Of a DNA stretch of 20,420 nucleotides, positions 1,957 through 20,420 are shown piece by piece; positions within the stretch are counted from its first letter, which is position 1, and each line of letters begins with the position of its first letter. Under the pieces are notes generated by a model. The model saw only the letters and a program-made list of their open reading frames with translations, ran no database searches and had not been told where the DNA came from. A program made the position numbers and the translations under genes. This stretch comes from a virus, in the IMG/VR virus record IMGVR_UViG_3300040806_002004, positions 1 through 20,420 of that record; one strand, 5' to 3'.

Positions 1957-4455
1957 TTATACTTCACTACCAATTAATCTAAAATCACAAGTTATAGCAG
2001 TACTCCAAGAAGTTCCACTTATAGATTGTGAAGTTTTAACTACTTGATAAAAACTTGGTGGCCCATACTTCAATGGTATTCCTTCAAATTGAATCATATC
2101 TCCAACTTTAAATCCACTTAAACCTTGAATAGTAAATTGAACTTTAGCAAGACCAGGAATTGGATTTACTCTATTTGTATATTCTTTATCAACTTCACCA
2201 TTAACACCTTTTTTTAATCCTCTATCAATCAATTCTACGGATTTTAATGCAGCTTTATCATCCCAAGTACCAACACATAATAAGGATTCAATATTACCAT
2301 TATCTTTTTTAGTTAATTCTTTATCTGTTAAATTATTAACAATATCAATTTTACCTTTTCTATTTTGTATTCTTGAAAATACACCTGCTCTGTTAGCGAA
2401 TAAATCAAAAGTTTTTGCATTAGCTGGTGGAGTTTCTTCTTCTTGATTTTCAAGTGTTTCTGGTTCATCAGATTCTCCTTGTGCGGATATCTTATTTAAA
2501 ATAGTACCTACCTTATCTTCAACTTCACCAGGGTCTGAAAAAACTCCTCCATATAAAGCATGTGGTGTATCTCCACTACCATCAACTTTATTGTTAGACA
2601 TTTTTTTAATCATAACACTACTTTGTAATGCACCAGGTATTGACATATCCCAACTTATTGATGTAAATGGTGATTTAACACCTCTTGCCTGATAGGTTGC
2701 AATATTTTCAACCGTTTCTTCAGGAATATAACCTCTAAATGTTACATCTTCTACACACAATACAGTTGGCCCATCAGGGTCGTTTAATGCAGGCCCTTCT
2801 CTTAATTGAAAATCCCAAATAGAATTACAAGCACCACTCATACCATTCAACATTTCAAATAAAGCATCTTTTGAGTTCATATTTGATTTTGATAAACATT
2901 CTACAAAGAAATGATAATTTATATATAAATCTTTTAACCAACCCCAAAAACCAGCTCGTTCTTGTAAAGGTTCTACGGTATCATCACAACTATATGTTAA
3001 TATACTTTCATCCAAGTCATACAAACAGGGAAACGCAAAAGGAACGGGTCTTGATTGACCTGTTGCTGGGTCATTAGCTGAACCATTTTTTTCTGCTCTT
3101 TCATCATCAGGAGCTTGTTCTACCAAAGGATGTAAGTTAGCTTGAAACTCTACATTATTTAATTCTTCAAAATTTATAAATTTTACTGGTTCTTCGTTCC
3201 CAGAATCTACAAGAGCTTGTCTTAATCCAAAATTAGGTGCTTGTGTATTTGGAACATATAATACTGATTTATCAGTACTCCACATATGTGGAAATGCCTT
3301 TATAGCTGTATTGGAAATATCTATTTTTAATAATTGGCTTTTTATACCTGAACACTCAGTTTCTTTAGGTTCTAAATCCATTACAAATGAATTAAATAGT
3401 TCTACAGCTAATTCAAATCTAATAAATCTTTCCTCATCAAAAAGAGGTACATCAGTTGGTATTTCTAACTTATCTCCACTTTTATTTCTAATAGTAGCAC
3501 CTTTAGTAAGTGTTTTTAATAAATAATCTTTGATTTCTTCATCAAAATTTACAAAGTTACCTTCGTAAGCCCAACTTACTCCATTAGAATCTGCACCACT
3601 TGCCCATTTTTTTATTCTTGCTGTTTTTTTGGTATTAGGTAATCCATTATACATTTGTTTAAATAAAGCAACACCAGGAGTACTCTCTCCAATTTTCTCT
3701 GGTTCAAATGATGGTGGATTGTTTTCATCTACAATATCTGTTCTATTACCACTACTTTGAACTTGCATATATTCGGCTACTTGACCAACACCAGAAGTTT
3801 TTACTTCAACATCATACGTTTCACCATCACCAAACTTAACACCACCACCAGTTACAATACCTAATGATGCATCATATTGATATTTAGAATTTTTTCTTTT
3901 TTCTTTTAAGAATGGCCAATTATTATATTGAGCTATATCACATGGAGTTATAGCTCCTCCACCACCTACTCTTTGAGAATAAGCATCATTGACATTCCAT
4001 CCCCATTCTGTTAATATATGAAATCCTGGTTCTAAGAAATATTTAGTTACAACATCTACTTGTTCCATTGTGAAACATCTAACATTAAAACTAATTAATT
4101 TTAATGCTCCTTGTTGGGCTTCATCTATTTTAAAATCAGTTATTATTGGTGAGGGTCTTAATCCTCTACCAGTACCTTCAATTTCAATAGGAGTTGATAA
4201 ATCAAGAGCATATCCAATAATACCAGGTTTACTATCATTTCCATATCTTTTTTCAAATTCAGTAGATATATTATATGAATCTGGTTTATGAATACTTTGC
4301 ATAACTAAACCATCATTTGCAGCTGATATCACTCGTATCCAAGTAGATAAACCACTAACCCCACCCATTGATATTGGGTTGTTAGTGTTCTGAACCCTTG
4401 AATCAAGAACTTCTCTAAGTTCAGGGTATAAATTTGAATACTTTGGAAAAAACAT
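1957..4455 (-). CDS. Large baseplate hub protein (832 aa)
   Basis: This is probably the central baseplate hub protein (gp27/gpD-like role), which joins the tail tube to the central spike. The N-terminal region (about 85-155) has a structural-protein segment with DLSTPIEIEGTGRG and LEPGFHILTEWGWN. The C-terminal region (about 765-832) carries a beta-rich block (GLSGFKVGDMIQFEGIPLKY, then YQVVKTSQSISGTSW) of the kind ending hub domains, where a tube-like barrel checks position and binding. It is about twice the length of T4 gp27 (391 residues), with a long middle section that includes a low-complexity acidic linker (DEPETLENQEEETPP). The gene starts 3 bases after the LysM gene and abuts the 128-residue gene. 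The hub call rests on C-terminal similarity and gene order, so a fused or expanded baseplate protein is the main alternative. Confidence 0.65.
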   Translation of the reverse strand: MFFPKYSNLYPELREVLDSRVQNTNNPISMGGVSGLSTWIRVISAANDGLVMQSIHKPDSYNISTEFEKRYGNDSKPGIIGYALDLSTPIEIEGTGRGLRPSPIITDFKIDEAQQGALKLISFNVRCFTMEQVDVVTKYFLEPGFHILTEWGWNVNDAYSQRVGGGGAITPCDIAQYNNWPFLKEKRKNSKYQYDASLGIVTGGGVKFGDGETYDVEVKTSGVGQVAEYMQVQSSGNRTDIVDENNPPSFEPEKIGESTPGVALFKQMYNGLPNTKKTARIKKWASGADSNGVSWAYEGNFVNFDEEIKDYLLKTLTKGATIRNKSGDKLEIPTDVPLFDEERFIRFELAVELFNSFVMDLEPKETECSGIKSQLLKIDISNTAIKAFPHMWSTDKSVLYVPNTQAPNFGLRQALVDSGNEEPVKFINFEELNNVEFQANLHPLVEQAPDDERAEKNGSANDPATGQSRPVPFAFPCLYDLDESILTYSCDDTVEPLQERAGFWGWLKDLYINYHFFVECLSKSNMNSKDALFEMLNGMSGACNSIWDFQLREGPALNDPDGPTVLCVEDVTFRGYIPEETVENIATYQARGVKSPFTSISWDMSIPGALQSSVMIKKMSNNKVDGSGDTPHALYGGVFSDPGEVEDKVGTILNKISAQGESDEPETLENQEEETPPANAKTFDLFANRAGVFSRIQNRKGKIDIVNNLTDKELTKKDNGNIESLLCVGTWDDKAALKSVELIDRGLKKGVNGEVDKEYTNRVNPIPGLAKVQFTIQGLSGFKVGDMIQFEGIPLKYGPPSFYQVVKTSQSISGTSWSTAITCDFRLIGSEV

Positions 4456-11471: not shown

Positions 11472-13853
11472 TTATGCCGAGAATGAAGCTCCTGTTGGGA
11501 GAATGTTGAAATCTAACACGATGAATTCAGCAGTTTTCGTTGGTTGTAAGAAAATCTGTCCAGCCAAGATGTTTCTGTCGATTACATCAGGTGTGTTATT
11601 AGTTTCATCCATCACTACTCGGAATGCATATAAACCTTGTCTTTGTTGGATTCCTTCTAAATATGGATTAACAGTATTTAGGAATCTTCCTCTTGTTTGT
11701 GCCGTATTTTGTTCGAACACCAAGTATCTTGATGTAGAAGCAATATACTTCTTAACTTTGATAAGTAATCTTCTTACGTTGATTCTATCAAGTGCAGATG
11801 CTCTATCTTGAAGAGTTTTCTGACCGAATGCAACGATACCTTCACCAGGGAACGCTGCGATTGGGTTAACTTTTCCTTCATATAGTGTATCTCTTTCAGC
11901 ATGTGTTAATCTGTTTAATACAGATACAGCACCTACGATACCACCTCTGTTTAAACCTGCTGGTGCAAACCATTCAGCGGCAACAGCATCGTTCGCTGCA
12001 TATATTCCAGGCATCAATACTGAAGGTGGAACTGCAGTTAATCTATTTGTTCTTGAATCGATTGTTTTAACCCATGGGTAGTAAGTACCAACATAGTTAG
12101 AATCTAAGTTACTTGCCTGTTCAACTGCCTGTGAAATACTATCAGTTGAAACTTGTCCTGTACCAGAGTTGTAAGTTACACCAACAACATCACCGATATA
12201 GAATGCATCTTCTCTTGCTTCTACCATATCAACCACTTTATCAAATACATAAGAGTGATGTCTACGAACAATACCAGGTACTGATACTAAGTTAATATCA
12301 AAATCATCTGGATTAGATACTGAGTTAATTGCCTTTACATAAGCAACTGAACCACTTGAAGTTGAAGTAGAACAATTGAATCCTTGAGTGTTACCACTAC
12401 CAAAGTTAGCAGATGAACCAGCAAGTGCTACTTCAGTTGTTGGAGATACACCATCGAATCCTTCTTGGAAACCAACAACAAATTGTCTCTTATTTACATC
12501 AGTTGAATCAGAACCTGTCAATTCGAATCCAAATGAGTGAGTACCACCATCAATCGTTACAGTACCATCAAATGCAAATACGGTAGTTAAACCATTTCCA
12601 GCTCCTGTTGGAATTGGTGATAAGAAATGTGCATTATCAGTTTTAATAGTTGTAGTTTCTAAATCAATACCACTATACTTAACTCCATTAGATGATGTGT
12701 TATCTTTTGAACCAGTGGAGAATATTACACCAGGAGTGATTGAATCTGAACCAGAGATTGGTGATAAATACTTACCATGTCCAAATGGTCCAGCAGTTAC
12801 AGGGAATGTACCCTCTGCCTTAGTTTCTACTCTAATAAACTTAGAACGATTTACATAATCACCATTTTCTGTTTGTTTTCCATTCGCATCGATAACAAGA
12901 TTTCTATCACCGATTACTTTCTTAATATAGTTTGGTGAAGCAGGGTCTAAGTTAACATTATTATATGTTTCTAAGATTACAGGTCTCTTATCTGTATCAG
13001 AGTATCCTCTAACAGCAACTGAGAAAGTTGAGTAATCAGTAGAATTATTAGTACCAGCGGCTTTTACACCAAATATTCCAATTTTATATTCTTTGTTATA
13101 ATTTGTACCATCACCAATAGTATGGAATCTGAAGAGGTCATGTCTTTCACCAGAAATTAACTGAGATTGTATCCAAGGAGTTGATGCATGTTGAATATCT
13201 TGTGTGAAAACTTGTTCTCCCAATTCTAAAGCGATTACTTGAGAACCACTTTGTGCAATATAGTTTGTTTGGTCACCAGCTGCTTTTTCAAAGTACTTAT
13301 AAACATAAGCCTTTTTAGAACCTCTTGGTGATTCACCAAATACATCGGAAATATCATTTCCTGCACTTGGAAGTACAGATGCTGATAATTCTGTTCCTAA
13401 CGCTGAACCACTAATATAGAATGCTGATGCAGATGGTTGAGAATCAATTAAATTTGCTGCTGTTTCAGCATCTGCAATAACACCAACTGATTCATCACCA
13501 GTGTGAGTTGCATGTAAAACTCCAACTAATTTTTCTCCTCCGTCAGAACCACTAATTACGATACCAAAAGGTCTTTGGTGAGTATATCCACCAATATGTC
13601 CAACACGAACAATCGTTACAGTTCCAGCTTCTCTTAGATAATTTTGTACGGTATATCCTGTATAGTACGAACCATCAGGTGTTCCGAATATTTCTTCAAA
13701 TTCTGATTGTGTATTTACAACGGTTGGTACGAAAGCAGGTCCTTTTTTAGTAGGTCCAATTATTGCTGCTCCGATTTCACCAATCCCTTGTGCTAAGAAA
13801 GATAAGTCATTCTCTCTTGTGAATACACCAGGTGATACAATTTTTTCTGCCAT
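11472..13853 (-). CDS. gp18: Tail sheath protein (gp18-like)
   Basis: This is the contractile tail sheath subunit. The N-terminus (SPGVFTRENDLSFLAQGIGE, then AAIIGPTKKGPAFVPTVVNT and EFEEIFGTPDGSYYTGY) and the C-terminus (LEGIQQRQGLYAFRVVMDET, DRNILAGQIFLQPTKTAEFI, DFNILPTGASF) carry the conserved sheath core that wraps the tube and interlocks between subunits. At 793 residues it is longer than T4 gp18 (659). The extra length lies in the Ser/Thr/Gly-rich middle (about 110-560), which in sheaths forms surface-exposed insertion domains. An AAGGAG Shine-Dalgarno precedes the ATG. The tail tube gene follows after 60 bases, the normal order. Confidence 0.96.
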   Translation of the reverse strand: MAEKIVSPGVFTRENDLSFLAQGIGEIGAAIIGPTKKGPAFVPTVVNTQSEFEEIFGTPDGSYYTGYTVQNYLREAGTVTIVRVGHIGGYTHQRPFGIVISGSDGGEKLVGVLHATHTGDESVGVIADAETAANLIDSQPSASAFYISGSALGTELSASVLPSAGNDISDVFGESPRGSKKAYVYKYFEKAAGDQTNYIAQSGSQVIALELGEQVFTQDIQHASTPWIQSQLISGERHDLFRFHTIGDGTNYNKEYKIGIFGVKAAGTNNSTDYSTFSVAVRGYSDTDKRPVILETYNNVNLDPASPNYIKKVIGDRNLVIDANGKQTENGDYVNRSKFIRVETKAEGTFPVTAGPFGHGKYLSPISGSDSITPGVIFSTGSKDNTSSNGVKYSGIDLETTTIKTDNAHFLSPIPTGAGNGLTTVFAFDGTVTIDGGTHSFGFELTGSDSTDVNKRQFVVGFQEGFDGVSPTTEVALAGSSANFGSGNTQGFNCSTSTSSGSVAYVKAINSVSNPDDFDINLVSVPGIVRRHHSYVFDKVVDMVEAREDAFYIGDVVGVTYNSGTGQVSTDSISQAVEQASNLDSNYVGTYYPWVKTIDSRTNRLTAVPPSVLMPGIYAANDAVAAEWFAPAGLNRGGIVGAVSVLNRLTHAERDTLYEGKVNPIAAFPGEGIVAFGQKTLQDRASALDRINVRRLLIKVKKYIASTSRYLVFEQNTAQTRGRFLNTVNPYLEGIQQRQGLYAFRVVMDETNNTPDVIDRNILAGQIFLQPTKTAEFIVLDFNILPTGASFSA

Positions 13854-13932: not shown

Positions 13933-14220
13933 CTATTCAGAATCTTTCTCTTCTAAATTTGCAGGAACAAAAGTATTAGTTTCTGGGTTATAATTACCAT
14001 CACCATACTTTTCATTCAATCCTTTAAACAATGTTTGTTCTTGCTCTTGTAACTGTTTATGTTGTACTAATAGTTGTTCTTCAATCTCAGTCAACTCATC
14101 TATTCTTCTTTTTTTCTCGATAGAAAGTTGTCCTAGCTGTGTAAATATTGCTGAAACATCTTGTCTTAACTTATTGATTTGTTGAACTTCTTCTTCTGTA
14201 AACTTAATTTCTTTTGTCAT
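13933..14220 (-). CDS. Small coiled-coil protein (95 aa)
   Basis: This 95-residue protein of unknown function is almost entirely helical, with heptad-like charged and Leu/Ile spacing from about residue 8 to 70 (EEVQQINKLRQDVSAIFTQL, then RRIDELTEIEEQLLVQHKQL). It ends in a short extended tail, GDGNYNPETNTFVP. It has no membrane segment. Small proteins of this look occur beside structural genes in T4-like marine phages, but I cannot name a role; an oligomeric assembly factor or linker is plausible. A TATATTTATA element lies 32 bases upstream. No Shine-Dalgarno is obvious. Confidence 0.8.
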   Translation of the reverse strand: MTKEIKFTEEEVQQINKLRQDVSAIFTQLGQLSIEKKRRIDELTEIEEQLLVQHKQLQEQEQTLFKGLNEKYGDGNYNPETNTFVPANLEEKDSE

Positions 14221-14284: not shown

Positions 14285-15610
14285 TTATCTCGTAATAGTT
14301 AATGAACTTGTCCATGAACTATTTAAACCATGGTCAATCGCTCTTACTCTAGCATAAAATGTCCCACTTCCTAAAGCAGTTACTACATTATAAGTAGTTG
14401 TACTATATTCATCAGCATCAATAATTGGTGATGAAAAATCAGAATTATTATCTACTTGTAATCTATATGCAGTTGCACCACTTACAGCATCCCATGTAAT
14501 ATTATGATTTTGAGCATTAACTTCAGTATATGCTAAATTAGTAGGTGCAGATGGTGCTGTCAAATCACTATGAGAGTTTCCACCTTTATTATGAGTTACA
14601 TATCCATTTATTAAATATGTATCTTGAGTTTCTACATCGATAGTAACAATTTCAACAGTATCTTCAACTACTTCAATTGAAGTTATATCAACTTCTACTA
14701 AATTACCATCTATTTTTTTAACTAATTTATCATTTGTAGTAATATGACCAAGTTTTTTAAATCTAAATAAATCATCGGTTGCATCTTTTACCAACATTGG
14801 ATGGTCTTGTGTTGCTTTAATTTCTCCATCATTGATATTATAATATCCATCTGAAAATGAAAATACAACATTTACTACTTCAACTTCCTCTTCGGCCTCA
14901 CCCTTTTCTTCAGATGACCAATTGTAAAAATTACCATCAGAATCTTCAGATAAACCACTAAAAGAGTACCCTTGTAATTTTAATCCTTCAGTTACATCTC
15001 CAGCTTCAATAGTAGAACCATCTGTTAATACAACAGGAGTATCTACTAAAATACATAACGAAGTTGAGTTACCATCATAAGAATCTACTGAATATACATT
15101 TTTTGTTAAACCAGTATTATAATTTGTAGCATGGTTATTATAACCATCTGCAAAAGTACCAGTAATTGTATGAGAATAATTACTCATTAAAGAAGTTTGA
15201 GCAGAACTAAATTCAGGATTCATAGTTCCTACTGTAATTTGATTTGTATAATCAGCAGAGGCCTCTAATGAAATATATCCTGCAGTATTACCTCCCGAAT
15301 TATATGTAGGTGATACTGCCCAAGTAAAATTTGCTCCTCTTGTTTTGATATCTCTAGCAAAATAGTTTCTAGCTACAGTTCCTTCTCCACTAAAGTTCAT
15401 GGTATAAGTTTCATTAGTTCCTTCTACAGCATATGTAAATCCTGTTACAGAATCAACAGAATCAATAGCAAAATCATCTAATGAAACCTGTGTGCCAGTC
15501 GTACCATTTATGGATTGTAATGCATTAAGTGATACATCAGTTCCTTGTGTTTGTCCTAATGCACCTGCAAGATTATTTAAACTAAGTGTATCTCCTGAAG
15601 TTCTGGCCAT
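14285..15610 (-). CDS. Structural protein with intein-like Hint domain and fibronectin type III domain
   Basis: This 441-residue protein has three parts. Residues 1-185 are a Ser/Thr/Gly/Asn-rich beta structural region, starting MARTSGDTLSLNNLAGALGQ. Residues 186-341 form a Hint (intein/hedgehog) domain with Cys186, the block-B motif T267-Q-D-H270 and a C-terminal V-T-H340-N341. Residues 351-441 are a fibronectin type III domain (PSAPTNLAYTEV, ITWDAVSGATAYRLQVD, FYARVRAIDHG). Hint domains cleave or splice their own backbone. The residue after Asn341 is Lys342, not Cys, Ser or Thr, so ordinary splicing is unlikely and cleavage more so. AGGA precedes the ATG. The gene lies between the glycosyltransferase-like and sheath-region genes, which suggests a surface or fibre-associated tail protein. 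Confidence 0.85.
   Translation of the reverse strand: MARTSGDTLSLNNLAGALGQTQGTDVSLNALQSINGTTGTQVSLDDFAIDSVDSVTGFTYAVEGTNETYTMNFSGEGTVARNYFARDIKTRGANFTWAVSPTYNSGGNTAGYISLEASADYTNQITVGTMNPEFSSAQTSLMSNYSHTITGTFADGYNNHATNYNTGLTKNVYSVDSYDGNSTSLCILVDTPVVLTDGSTIEAGDVTEGLKLQGYSFSGLSEDSDGNFYNWSSEEKGEAEEEVEVVNVVFSFSDGYYNINDGEIKATQDHPMLVKDATDDLFRFKKLGHITTNDKLVKKIDGNLVEVDITSIEVVEDTVEIVTIDVETQDTYLINGYVTHNKGGNSHSDLTAPSAPTNLAYTEVNAQNHNITWDAVSGATAYRLQVDNNSDFSSPIIDADEYSTTTYNVVTALGSGTFYARVRAIDHGLNSSWTSSLTITR
14588..15055 (-). other. Hint (bacterial intein-like) domain
   Basis: The encoded domain spans residues 186-341 of the structural protein. It begins CILVDTPVVLTDGSTIEAGD, where the N-terminal Cys is the expected acyl-shift nucleophile. 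T267 and H270 match the intein block-B TxxH, and the end VTHN provides the penultimate His and terminal Asn for cyclisation. No homing endonuclease is present; at 156 residues it is a mini domain with an acidic Glu-rich insertion (about 233-245). Lys at +1 and the position between different host domains match bacterial intein-like domains rather than true inteins. Confidence 0.85.
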
Positions 15611-15619
15611 AATTGTTTC

Positions 15620-16618
15620 CTATATATTATAAATATTAAGTAAATCTTCTATCCACTTATCTTTGTTAGAAAACTCGCTTATCATATAATTTTTTAGTTT
15701 ATTGAACCATTTATTCTTTTCTTCATAGGATGATTCAATGATTCCATTATAAATATCTACAAATTCTTTTTTAGATGAAACTCTATATGGGTATTCAAAG
15801 TCAGAACACCAAGTTTTGTGTAATATTGGCAACTTTCCTCTATCAACGGCTTCAAATATACCATATCCAAATGGTTCGGATGAAAATGCAGAGTGTGATA
15901 TTCCCCAATCCATATTATAGAATATATCTTTGAATTTAGAATCATAGTGATAAATTTTAGATTTAGAATAATCATATTTACCAAACCCCTTCCATACAGT
16001 TTTGAAATGAAATGAATTTGTAAATATGAAAGATTTCAAACCATCTAAGTAATGTGGATTTTTCCTACCTTCACATCTTGAAGCAAAACCTAAATTATTT
16101 GATTCACTCAAAGGTAAATTGTATTTAAATTCGTAAAAGTTTGTTATTCTTTTATTTGGAATTAAAATATCATACAATCCTATCCATATATTATGTTTTG
16201 CATATTTAGTAACCTTTTGTTCCCAACTTGAATCTAAATAAGGATGCCAACCAAAATAAGCATCAGTTCCAACTTGTGATTTTAAGATATGGTCTACTGA
16301 ATTATGAAGAATATTTGAATGAATCTTATCTAAATTTTCTTCTATTACCTTCATTGGTGTATAATGTCCATGTAATATATTGATTCTTCGTGCTCCCTTA
16401 CATAGTTCTTCAAACTTTTCAATATCATCACCATGCCAATGAGCTTGTATCGGAAATTTATAATCTTCGTGTCCTTCTGGTTTGTTTCTATGAATAAGAA
16501 GTATAGGTTTTATTTGCAAATGAGGAACAATCAATTCCAACCATAAATTTACCCAAGCATCTGTTCCAGCGTTTACCCAAGGTCCACCGCCAGTAGTATA
16601 ATACACATCATATACCAT
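15620..16618 (-). CDS. GT-B glycosyltransferase-like protein
   Basis: This 332-residue protein has the look of a retaining GT-B glycosyltransferase (GT4-like), which would move a sugar from a nucleotide-sugar donor. The C-terminal half has the EX7E motif, E248-PFGYGIF-E256, followed by the AVDRGKLPIL loop typical of the donor site. An earlier FASRCEGRKNPHYLDGL segment (178-194) matches the Arg/Lys donor-phosphate region. The N-terminal half has GGGPWVNAGTDAWVNLWLEL and a beta-strand with LLIHRN, and is less standard. No membrane segment is seen. The ATG follows the fibre gene stop by 4 bases and the gene ends 9 bases before the Hint protein, so it is co-expressed with tail fibre genes. The acceptor is unknown: a phage structural protein or a host glycan are both possible. 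Confidence 0.75.
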   Translation of the reverse strand: MVYDVYYTTGGGPWVNAGTDAWVNLWLELIVPHLQIKPILLIHRNKPEGHEDYKFPIQAHWHGDDIEKFEELCKGARRINILHGHYTPMKVIEENLDKIHSNILHNSVDHILKSQVGTDAYFGWHPYLDSSWEQKVTKYAKHNIWIGLYDILIPNKRITNFYEFKYNLPLSESNNLGFASRCEGRKNPHYLDGLKSFIFTNSFHFKTVWKGFGKYDYSKSKIYHYDSKFKDIFYNMDWGISHSAFSSEPFGYGIFEAVDRGKLPILHKTWCSDFEYPYRVSSKKEFVDIYNGIIESSYEEKNKWFNKLKNYMISEFSNKDKWIEDLLNIYNI

Positions 16619-18512: not shown

Positions 18513-18803
18513 TTATTGTAGTTTTGATTTTAATTCATCAATTTGTTTTTGTTGTTCCTTAATTGCTTCGATAAGGAGACCAGTAAGTTTTGCATAATCT
18601 ACACCCTTAAATCCATTATCTCTATCGTGAACCAATTGAGGAAGAACTTTCTCTACATCTTGTGCAATAACCCCTACATTTGGTAAAGATTGTTGTAATT
18701 CATCTGCATTTTCATTCCAATTCCAAGTTACACCTTTTAGAGATTGAACTTTTTCTATTGGATTAGAGATAAGTTCTATATTATCTTTTAATCTTTCATC
18801 TGA
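18513..18803 (-). other. Peptidase S74 / intramolecular chaperone domain
   Basis: The encoded domain starts at Ser-Asp of SSDERLKDN, the usual autocleavage position in endosialidase-type chaperones. It continues with WNWNEN, the conserved GVIAQDVEKVLPQLV core and a terminal amphipathic helix (LLIEAIKEQQKQIDELKSKL) that trimerises. Cleavage before the Ser would release about 96 residues and leave the mature fibre ending GGDVVAYAS. Confidence 0.9.
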
Positions 18804-20420
18804 TGATGCATATGCTACAACATCACCACCAACATTCAATGCTCCACTAATACCAACTCCACCAGTTACTTTTAGTGCTCCAGTTGTTTTAGATGTTGAA
18901 GCAGTTGAATTAGTAATATTAACTGCTGCTGAGAATGTTTTAGCTCCACTAAATGTTTGTGTTTCACTTAGGTGTGCCGTATTTGATGATAAGTAAGCAT
19001 CTGCAATTGCTGTACCTTGCCAAGTACCAGTTGAGATTGTTCCTAATGTTGTGATATTAGAAGTACCAGCCCATGTAGAAAGTGCTGTATTCTCAACATT
19101 TCCTAAACCAACATCACCTTTAGTTGTTGCTTGTGCTCTTAATCCACTATAAGTTCCATTTACTAATGCAATTTGAACTTCAGCACCACTTAAACCAGCC
19201 TTCCAATAACCATTCGTTTCATCCCAAAGTAAGGTTGCATTTGTTTCAGTGCCTCTTTCAATTGTAATACCACCATTTTGTGTTGGAGTACCAGTAACAT
19301 CGGCATTAAGTACAATGTTGTTATCACCAATGTTAAGAGTATTAGAGTTAATAAAGTTTGTTGTACCACTTACAGTTAAGTTACCTGGAACCGAAATAAT
19401 ATCATCTGAATCACCAAGTGTTAGAGTTCCTAAGTTAGCACTAAGTGCAGATTTAACATTTGCAGTTGAAGCATATTTATTAGTTGAACCTTCTGATAAA
19501 TTATCAGTAGATTTTGTTGCTAATCTCGTATCCCAATCAGAATCAGTATAGTGGTCTAAATCTGAAATTTGTGATTCAGTAATTGTAATTTGTGATGAAG
19601 CACTAATTACACCTTCAGCATCTAATTTAGTTTTAACTCTTGCATCTGTGTAGTAAAGATTAGTTCCTTCTGATAAGTTAGTTGTTGATTTGGTTGCTAA
19701 TCTTGAATCCCAATCTGAATCCGTATAATGGTCTAAATCAGAAATCTGAGATTCAGTAATTGTAATTTGTGATGAAGCACTAATTACACCTTCAGCATTT
19801 AATTTAGTTTTAACTCTTGCATCAGTATAATATAGATTAGTTCCTTCTGATACGATAGTTGTTGTTAATCCAGTCAATTCACTACCATCACCAATAACTT
19901 TACCAAATGAACCAGTTGATGTAGATGAACCAATAATATTACCATCATCAATTATAATACCAGGAGCTACAACTCTGTGGAAAGAACCAGTAAATGCGAA
20001 AACTGTATCGGCCTCAATACCATCAAAATAGGCATTTGAAAATGTAGAATTCTGTTCAAGAGCACTAATACCCCCAAGTATCGATAAAGAACCAGTCATT
20101 TGTATTCTAATAGCATCTGAATAAGTAACACTATCATACAAAAATAGATTGAAATTAGGATTAACTTTTAAATAATCATGAGAAGTTAAACCATTCTCCG
20201 AATTATAGAATGATATATGATTAGTTGTTCCCGAACCACTTAATACTGAATCACCATTTAATTCTAAGAAATCTCCTTGAATTTGTGCTGAACTACTAAT
20301 TACACCTTCGGCATCTAATTTAGTTTTAACTCTTGCATCTGTATAATACTTGTTAGTACCTTCTGATACATTTGTAGTTGTTAAGTTAGAAATATCAGTA
20401 CTTGCATCTACTTGTCCTAA
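18513..20420 (-). CDS. Tail fibre with S74 chaperone domain (5' end missing)
   Basis: This is a long tail fibre protein. The frame is open to the window's right edge, so at least 636 residues are encoded and the true start lies outside; the TTG at 20141 is not a convincing start. The visible part begins with repeated stalk units, each with EGTN.YYTDARVKTKL followed by GVISxSxQI: one at 20366-20280 and two full 59-residue tandem copies at 19850-19497. Then come beta-rich stalk segments (GNLTVSGTTNFINSNTLNIG, TTKGDVGLGNVENTALSTWA). The last 96 residues are an S74 intramolecular chaperone (SDERLKDNIELI, GVIAQDVEKVLPQLV, then a C-terminal coiled coil). The chaperone helps trimerise the fibre and is then cut off by itself. 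It heads the fibre module, with a terminator 10 bases downstream. Confidence 0.9.
   Translation of the reverse strand, partial: LGQVDASTDISNLTTTNVSEGTNKYYTDARVKTKLDAEGVISSSAQIQGDFLELNGDSVLSGSGTTNHISFYNSENGLTSHDYLKVNPNFNLFLYDSVTYSDAIRIQMTGSLSILGGISALEQNSTFSNAYFDGIEADTVFAFTGSFHRVVAPGIIIDDGNIIGSSTSTGSFGKVIGDGSELTGLTTTIVSEGTNLYYTDARVKTKLNAEGVISASSQITITESQISDLDHYTDSDWDSRLATKSTTNLSEGTNLYYTDARVKTKLDAEGVISASSQITITESQISDLDHYTDSDWDTRLATKSTDNLSEGSTNKYASTANVKSALSANLGTLTLGDSDDIISVPGNLTVSGTTNFINSNTLNIGDNNIVLNADVTGTPTQNGGITIERGTETNATLLWDETNGYWKAGLSGAEVQIALVNGTYSGLRAQATTKGDVGLGNVENTALSTWAGTSNITTLGTISTGTWQGTAIADAYLSSNTAHLSETQTFSGAKTFSAAVNITNSTASTSKTTGALKVTGGVGISGALNVGGDVVAYASSDERLKDNIELISNPIEKVQSLKGVTWNWNENADELQQSLPNVGVIAQDVEKVLPQLVHDRDNGFKGVDYAKLTGLLIEAIKEQQKQIDELKSKLQ
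19497..19850 (-). repeat. Two tandem 177-base repeats in the fibre gene
   Basis: Two adjacent in-frame units, 19674-19850 and 19497-19673, encode 59 nearly identical residues each (SEGTNLYYTDARVKTKL, GVISASSQITITESQISDL, DHYTDSDWDxRLATKST). A shorter related unit lies upstream at 20280-20366 and another SEG unit start follows at 19496. The DNA copies are also close, which suggests recent duplication or recombination that can change fibre length. Confidence 0.9.

Follow-up and report, generated by a model that had tools for sequence, protein, structure and literature searches.

A 441-aa protein encoded in the window (the whole 20,420-nucleotide stretch of viral DNA that was analysed, from IMG/VR record IMGVR_UViG_3300040806_002004) carries a Hint domain followed by a lysine, Lys342, that does not vary among its relatives. 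An intein would be expected to require Cys, Ser, or Thr at this +1 position, and the original prediction took Lys342 as the residue that rules out ligation and splicing. By contrast, our comparisons indicate that Lys at +1 probably belongs to how the Hint domain works and is not a defect. It is invariant in the family and recurs after Hint domains in unrelated phage proteins, which fits a lost nucleophile poorly, and Hint domains have been reported to ligate without a +1 nucleophile. We found no description of an invariant +1 Lys, nor of the Hint-FN3 (fibronectin type III) family, in the literature searched, in which coverage of subscription journals was thin. Phage structural proteins with an annotated Hint domain are on record, as in phage NCTB, Erwinia Y3, and uncultured Caudovirales in BFVD.

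Architecture and genomic setting of the Hint-FN3 protein

Translation of 14285-15610 on the minus strand gave 441 aa with C186, T267-Q-D-H270, H340-N341, and K342. The residues singled out in the original prediction (Cys186, TxxH at 267-270, His340-Asn341, and Lys342) are thus all where it placed them, and 14588-15055 corresponds to residues 186-341 (Table 1). Profiles, an AF2 model, Foldseek, and conservation also bear out its reading of this segment as an intact self-processing Hint domain with plausible reactions at both junctions. A chance motif match was ruled out by the profiles, the fold, and the conservation.

Table 1. Coordinates of the Hint-FN3 gene, its protein segments and its neighbours in the window
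Feature	Position	Strand	Basis or remark
441-aa protein	14285..15610	-	Stop codon included; N-terminal beta domain, Hint domain, linker, FN3 domain; architecture common to >110 distinct relatives
N-terminal part, residues 1-185	15056..15610	-	AF2: beta-rich fold ~50-175, last strand 168-175
Segment D176..L185 (DSYDGNSTSL)	within 15056..15610	-	Low-confidence in AF2 model; follows strand 168-175
Hint domain, residues 186-341	14588..15055	-	Profiles, AF2 model, Foldseek
Cys186 (position 1), putative N-S acyl shift nucleophile	15053..15055	-	Invariant in 80/80 relatives
Block B T267-Q-D-H270	14801..14812	-	T 79/80, Ser 1/80; H 80/80
His340-Asn341, putative Asn cyclisation pair	14588..14593	-	Invariant
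Lys342, +1 residue	14585..14587	-	Invariant in 116/116 distinct relatives
Linker KGGNSHSDLTAP, residues 342-353	14552..14587	-	Model low-confidence around 345-347
FN3 domain, residues 354-441	14288..14551	-	Pfam PF00041 and structure match
332-aa gene	15620..16618	-	Directly upstream of Hint-FN3 gene in all loci displayed; synteny, among best conserved
95-aa gene	13933..14220	-	Directly downstream of Hint-FN3 gene in all loci displayed; synteny
Tail sheath gene	11472..13853	-	Downstream; phrog_23, E 3e-67

Several profiles converged on the Hint domain. TIGR01445 (intein_Nterm) matched residues 186-274 at E 1.6e-4 and 22.5 bits, just below its cut-off of 24.5. It matched 71 of 80 relatives at E <= 0.01, several of them above the cut-off, and it exceeded the cut-off in the records of six of nine relatives, in some of which the best match was a second Hint gene. 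At E <= 0.01, Pfam Intein_splicing matched 37/80 relatives (best E 2.4e-6) and PT-HINT 36/80 (best E 3.9e-7). When the family profile was searched against the PDB, it retrieved BIL2 (6y75, E 0.0019), CthBIL4 (2lwy, E 0.0046), and the KlbA intein (2jmz, E 0.0072); the N-terminal domain had no match in the PDB profile search.

The AF2 model built from 80 sequences reached a mean pLDDT of 86.6 and superseded an earlier model from 14 sequences (pLDDT 69). In Foldseek, it matched 6y75 (BIL2) at E 1.7e-8 with a target TM of 0.79 and an rmsd of 2.8, and target TM was 0.83 against 2lwy (CthBIL4) and 0.79 against the Ssp DnaB mini-intein. Block mean pLDDT was 73-75 before Cys186 and 56 after Asn341, below that of the domains and consistent with linkers on both sides of the Hint domain. 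The FN3 domain (residues 354-441) matched structure 3mpc with an rmsd of 2.6, and Pfam fn3 (PF00041) fell on residues 354-437, sub-threshold in the window copy and with a best E of 7.1e-8 among relatives.

Gene order was the same in each displayed locus: fibre or other structural genes, the 332-aa gene, the Hint-FN3 gene, the 95-aa gene, tail sheath, and tail tube, with an additional gene ahead of the tail sheath in one lineage. Contigs with relatives reach 276-289 kb. Such strict synteny supports a virion role for the Hint-FN3 protein, and it is this position in a virion module, with sheath and tube genes downstream, that speaks for the earlier suggestion of a tail structural protein. The 332-aa gene product looks glycosyltransferase-like by eye (EPFGYGIFEAVDRGKLPI); it gave no convincing Pfam or PHROG match. 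A phytanoyl-CoA dioxygenase-like (PhyH) gene lies at 766-1536 of the window, adjoining baseplate-region genes (E 5e-18).

Conservation of the +1 lysine within the family

Scans of IMG/VR yielded 116 distinct relatives with complete Hint ends, at identities down to ~40%. All 116 carried Lys at +1, even where +2 varied (KDEG, KEQG), and the Lys342 codons were AAA in 102 cases and AAG in nine. On a tree of 80 relatives spanning 17.3 substitutions per site, Cys186, His270, His340, Asn341, and Lys342 underwent zero changes. The same was true of D176, Y178, D179, and L185 (-1) on the N-terminal side of the Hint domain. Mean changes per site on this tree were 10.6 for the linker (342-353), 11.6 for the Hint domain, and 14.0 for FN3; next to the unchanged Lys342, Gly343 changed three times and Gly344 nine times. 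In a divergent lineage (L328, L330, L331, L346), Asn replaces the block B Thr (GNGEHP), with Cys1, His, His-Asn, and Lys retained.

The invariance of Lys did not stem from how relatives were found. An artefact of THNKG search patterns was ruled out because queries lacking +1 gave the same result, and an apparent IHNL at one locus (L288) proved to be a pattern artefact, the true end being HNK. When the N-terminal domain alone served as query, so that genes were not selected on +1, Lys was the +1 residue in 79/79 complete genes, and a second N-domain search (80 loci) had the same outcome, with Lys at +1 and the Hint domain present. Neither search returned a Hint-free homologue of the N-terminal domain (79/79 complete members; 80 loci in the further search), which indicates that, in contrast to a mobile intein, the Hint domain belongs permanently to this gene. 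Cellular relatives were absent from cellular genome contigs and from plasmids.

These results bear on two other readings of the domain. That it is a standard mobile mini-intein that has entered a tail gene is extremely improbable: it has the Hint fold with all the splicing motifs, but its +1 residue is never Cys, Ser, or Thr in the Hint-FN3 family, it has no endonuclease, and the N-domain-selected loci held no Hint-free allele. Very unlikely, too, is a retained scaffold that reacts rarely or never and whose residues are conserved for fold stability. Both junctions do look like flexible linkers in the model, but Cys1, the block B His, and the terminal His-Asn are jointly invariant over deep divergence and in many contexts, which is the pattern of an active site. 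Judging from this conservation and the predicted fold, we consider it likely that the domain is active in self-processing.

His-Asn-Lys in other phage proteins

A Hint scan of the relatives' genomes uncovered a second protein with tandem Hint units, ending in HN-Lys-stop. This virion-type protein has two to three units and was seen on contigs 3300047157_000197 (~20.6-23.9 kb; L349/L357) and 3300030419_004471 (L353/L369). A scan with its last Hint unit, cut before His-Asn, returned ~20 distinct homologues, whose last units ended in HN-Lys-stop, HN-Lys-Lys-stop, or, once, HN-Lys-Asn-Phe-Thr-stop. In internal units, +1 was Arg, Ala, Tyr, or Phe, with Arg in all second units (9/9) from one class of the tandem Hint protein. 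Unrelated matches in the same scan read HNS, HNS, HNT, and HNC, as in true inteins, and these canonical +1 residues are a further point against a mini-intein in the Hint-FN3 gene.

A similar scan with the Hint domain of a VrlC-type adsorption protein, its query again ending ahead of His-Asn, returned proteins that have Lys at +1 and a Hint domain that is N-terminal, internal, tandem, or terminal. Among them are proteins of ~920-940 aa (L410-L415) in which the Hint domain starts after only ~10 residues (MGGS/C...HN/KGG). Over the 183 distinct Hint units at all fetched loci, +1 was Lys in 157, Arg in nine, Ala and Thr in five each, Tyr and Phe in three each, and Val in one; the units were gathered by similarity starting from the Hint-FN3 family, and the Lys share is accordingly a biased frequency. 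With the Hint domain masked, Lys-bearing proteins occupied 13 of the 16 similarity clusters; this is an approximate count, since some members are fragments. HN-Lys follows the Hint domain in about a dozen unrelated host-protein contexts. Reconstruction on the Hint tree required eight changes at +1, with Lys as the root state. The persistence of Lys across unrelated host proteins is not explained by this sampling bias.

This breadth also weakens the idea that Lys is conserved for the sake of the FN3 partner, given the other host contexts and the proteins that end in HN-Lys-stop. Both Asn and Lys are kept in chains ending in HN-Lys-stop or HN-Lys-Lys-stop, as would be expected if Lys serves the reaction and not a C-terminal partner.

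For the VrlC-type adsorption protein (L376, around 3001-3441), the occupied site can be compared with empty ones. Its Hint domain sits in GGGSGD/C...VHN/K/PIAQSF, and five Hint-free homologues read RGD/PIAQS, NPD/PLAQT, GPD/PVAQT, GTD/PISQT, and WWD/PLAQS at the same site. Comparison of these sites, with one example of a Hint-bearing VrlC, indicates that the insert is the Hint domain plus Lys, which separates Asp from Pro in a conserved D-P(I/L/V)(A/S)Q motif. VrlC homologues without the Hint domain came from Rhizobium, Pelagibacter, Sinorhizobium, Ochrobactrum, and Synechococcus phages. In addition, a distant homologue (L358, E 2e-11) of the window's 832-aa protein (1957-4455) has a terminal Hint domain ending in HN-Lys-stop, and the window copy is without one. 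Together, the VrlC insert and this terminal domain indicate that the Hint-Lys unit probably spread from one virion protein to another.

Erwinia, Dickeya, and Yersinia jumbo phages and phage NCTB (L262-L268, L101) also have Hint domains, which lie in collagen-like or tail-region proteins (tblastn E down to 8e-10). In these proteins, annotated as intein domain or virion structural protein, the Hint domain is near the C-terminus and is followed by a tail of 3-10 residues. Their +1 residue is Thr in Erwinia and Dickeya, Val in Yersinia, and Ala or Lys in NCTB.

Relation to known Hint domains and possible reactions

The 441-aa protein has the features of the Hint superfamily, namely the Hint fold, Cys1, block B TxxH, and a terminal Asn. 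It differs in some respects from each of the known groups compared. The mini-inteins Ssp DnaB (1mi8, class 1) and KlbA (2jmz, class 2) share its fold and motif order, but the class 1 features of a +1 Cys/Ser/Thr, a block F Asp (F:4, judged by alignment only), and intein-free alleles (among the N-domain-selected loci) are all lacking, and the domain is fixed, not sporadic. Hedgehog/Hog domains have no terminal His-Asn and are followed by a sterol-recognition region; here, His340-Asn341 is invariant and FN3 follows. Pretoxin PT-HINT domains release a C-terminal toxin domain, and despite the profile similarity in 36/80 relatives, the C-terminal domain of the 441-aa protein is FN3.

On sequence and predicted structure, the domain resembles the bacterial intein-like (BIL) domains more than a canonical intein. 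BIL2 of Tetrahymena BUBL1 (6y75, 6tmm) is the best Hint match both by family profile and by Foldseek E-value. It is eukaryotic, Zn-regulated, and flanked by ubiquitin-like domains, whereas the 441-aa protein has a beta domain and FN3 as flanks. CthBIL4 (2lwy), an A-type BIL, has the Hint fold, the His-Asn end, and no Cys/Ser/Thr at +1 in common with our protein; it is not a phage protein, and A-type BILs are not described with an invariant +1 Lys. A-type BILs are known from hypervariable bacterial proteins (PMC7765530). Thus, the 441-aa protein shows the A-type combination of a His-Asn end and no +1 nucleophile, but it lacks the unconserved +1 and hypervariable bacterial setting of that group, having an invariant Lys and a syntenic phage gene. 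Because the +1 residue is invariant, we did not file it as an A-type BIL, though it is BIL-like in likely function.

In the reaction that we favour, Cys186 would turn the Leu185-Cys186 bond into a thioester, the Lys342 amine would accept the N-terminal domain (the epsilon-amine before, or the alpha-amine after, Asn341 cyclisation), and Asn341 cyclisation would free the Hint domain. This would leave the N-terminal domain linked to the FN3 domain via Lys342, with the Hint piece of 156 residues discarded. The working unit would be Cys1...His-Asn plus Lys at +1, in a permanently resident BIL-like Hint domain. We infer that the domain reacts, that both junctions do so, and that the joining step uses Lys342. 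Because both reaction centres are conserved, both junctions probably react: with C-terminal cleavage as the only relevant reaction, Cys1 could vary, and with N-terminal cleavage alone, so could Asn. In proteins that end in Lys, only a single lysine would come off through Asn cyclisation, but His-Asn-Lys is retained all the same. Most simply, therefore, Lys would help to resolve the N-terminal thioester, in the manner of the +1 nucleophile in splicing.

There is precedent for the individual elements. An isopeptide bond with a lysine epsilon-amine has been reported for BIL2 (PMC8616854); the acceptor there is a lysine of the downstream ubl5. CthBIL4 is reported to ligate in the absence of a +1 nucleophile (Aranko 2013, Dassa 2004) and with no need of nucleophilic side chains (Aranko 2013). 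Still, the full reading, in which both junctions are processed and the flanks joined through Lys342 as amine acceptor, is one we hold tentatively, from sequence conservation and analogy. Counting against joining, some Hint units have Arg, Ala, Tyr, Phe, Thr, or Val at +1. An amine side chain is therefore not a universal feature, and what counts at +1 may be charge or position. In addition, the position of the KlbA block F Asp is occupied by Ser/Thr323 in the 441-aa protein (by alignment only), and the lack of this Asp suggests that coupling of the steps may be weak.

The main rival is cleavage without ligation, as in A-type BILs, in which the thioester would be hydrolysed and Asn341 would cyclise to give three pieces. 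The N-terminal domain would mature, and FN3, starting Lys-Gly-Gly, would be released or held non-covalently. This outcome would be in line with reviews that describe BIL domains, including those without a +1 nucleophile, as mainly cleaving rather than ligating (PMC7664689, PMC7765530), with the flexible, low-confidence linkers predicted on both sides of the Hint domain, and with the distant Hint units that have Ala, Val, Arg, or Tyr at +1. However, it offers no reason for the invariant +1 Lys or for His-Asn-Lys being kept in proteins that end at Lys, and we regard it as somewhat unlikely.

Quite unlikely is a transfer in trans, by which the Leu185 thioester would pass to a nucleophile, such as an amine, on an adjacent virion subunit or on a surface, cross-linking the two, and Asn341 cyclisation would free the FN3 part. 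BIL2 does attach the partner on its N-terminal side to lysines in other proteins (PMC8616854), and the Hint units at the C-terminus of many structural proteins would be suited to transferring an N-domain. Yet such transfer leaves the invariant Asn and the Lys in cis unexplained, and its acceptor is only hypothetical.

Returning to Lys342 as acceptor, the broadest version of that reading seems unlikely as it stands: a widespread phage Hint class in which the +1 Lys side-chain amine is the native acceptor, and an isopeptide joins flanking virion domains or caps a structural protein with a lysine as a normal maturation step. A phage-wide Hint lineage in which +1 Lys persists across unrelated structural proteins, even at the very end of the chain, suggests that the thioester is resolved by another route. 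Were Lys the acceptor, virion assembly would include a reaction that joins proteins, one that might also serve as a tool for forming lysine linkages with neither enzymes nor ATP. Should the domain do no more than cleave, this processing would still be fixed and obligatory across a large set of uncultivated tailed phages.

The window holds a second kind of self-processing domain. Its tail fibre gene (18513-20141) ends in a self-cleaving Peptidase S74 chaperone domain (E 3.4e-16), so that two different self-processing domains, Hint and Peptidase S74, lie inside one virion module. Peptidase S74 tail-fibre chaperone domains share self-cleavage with the Hint domain, but the two are unrelated in fold and chemistry.
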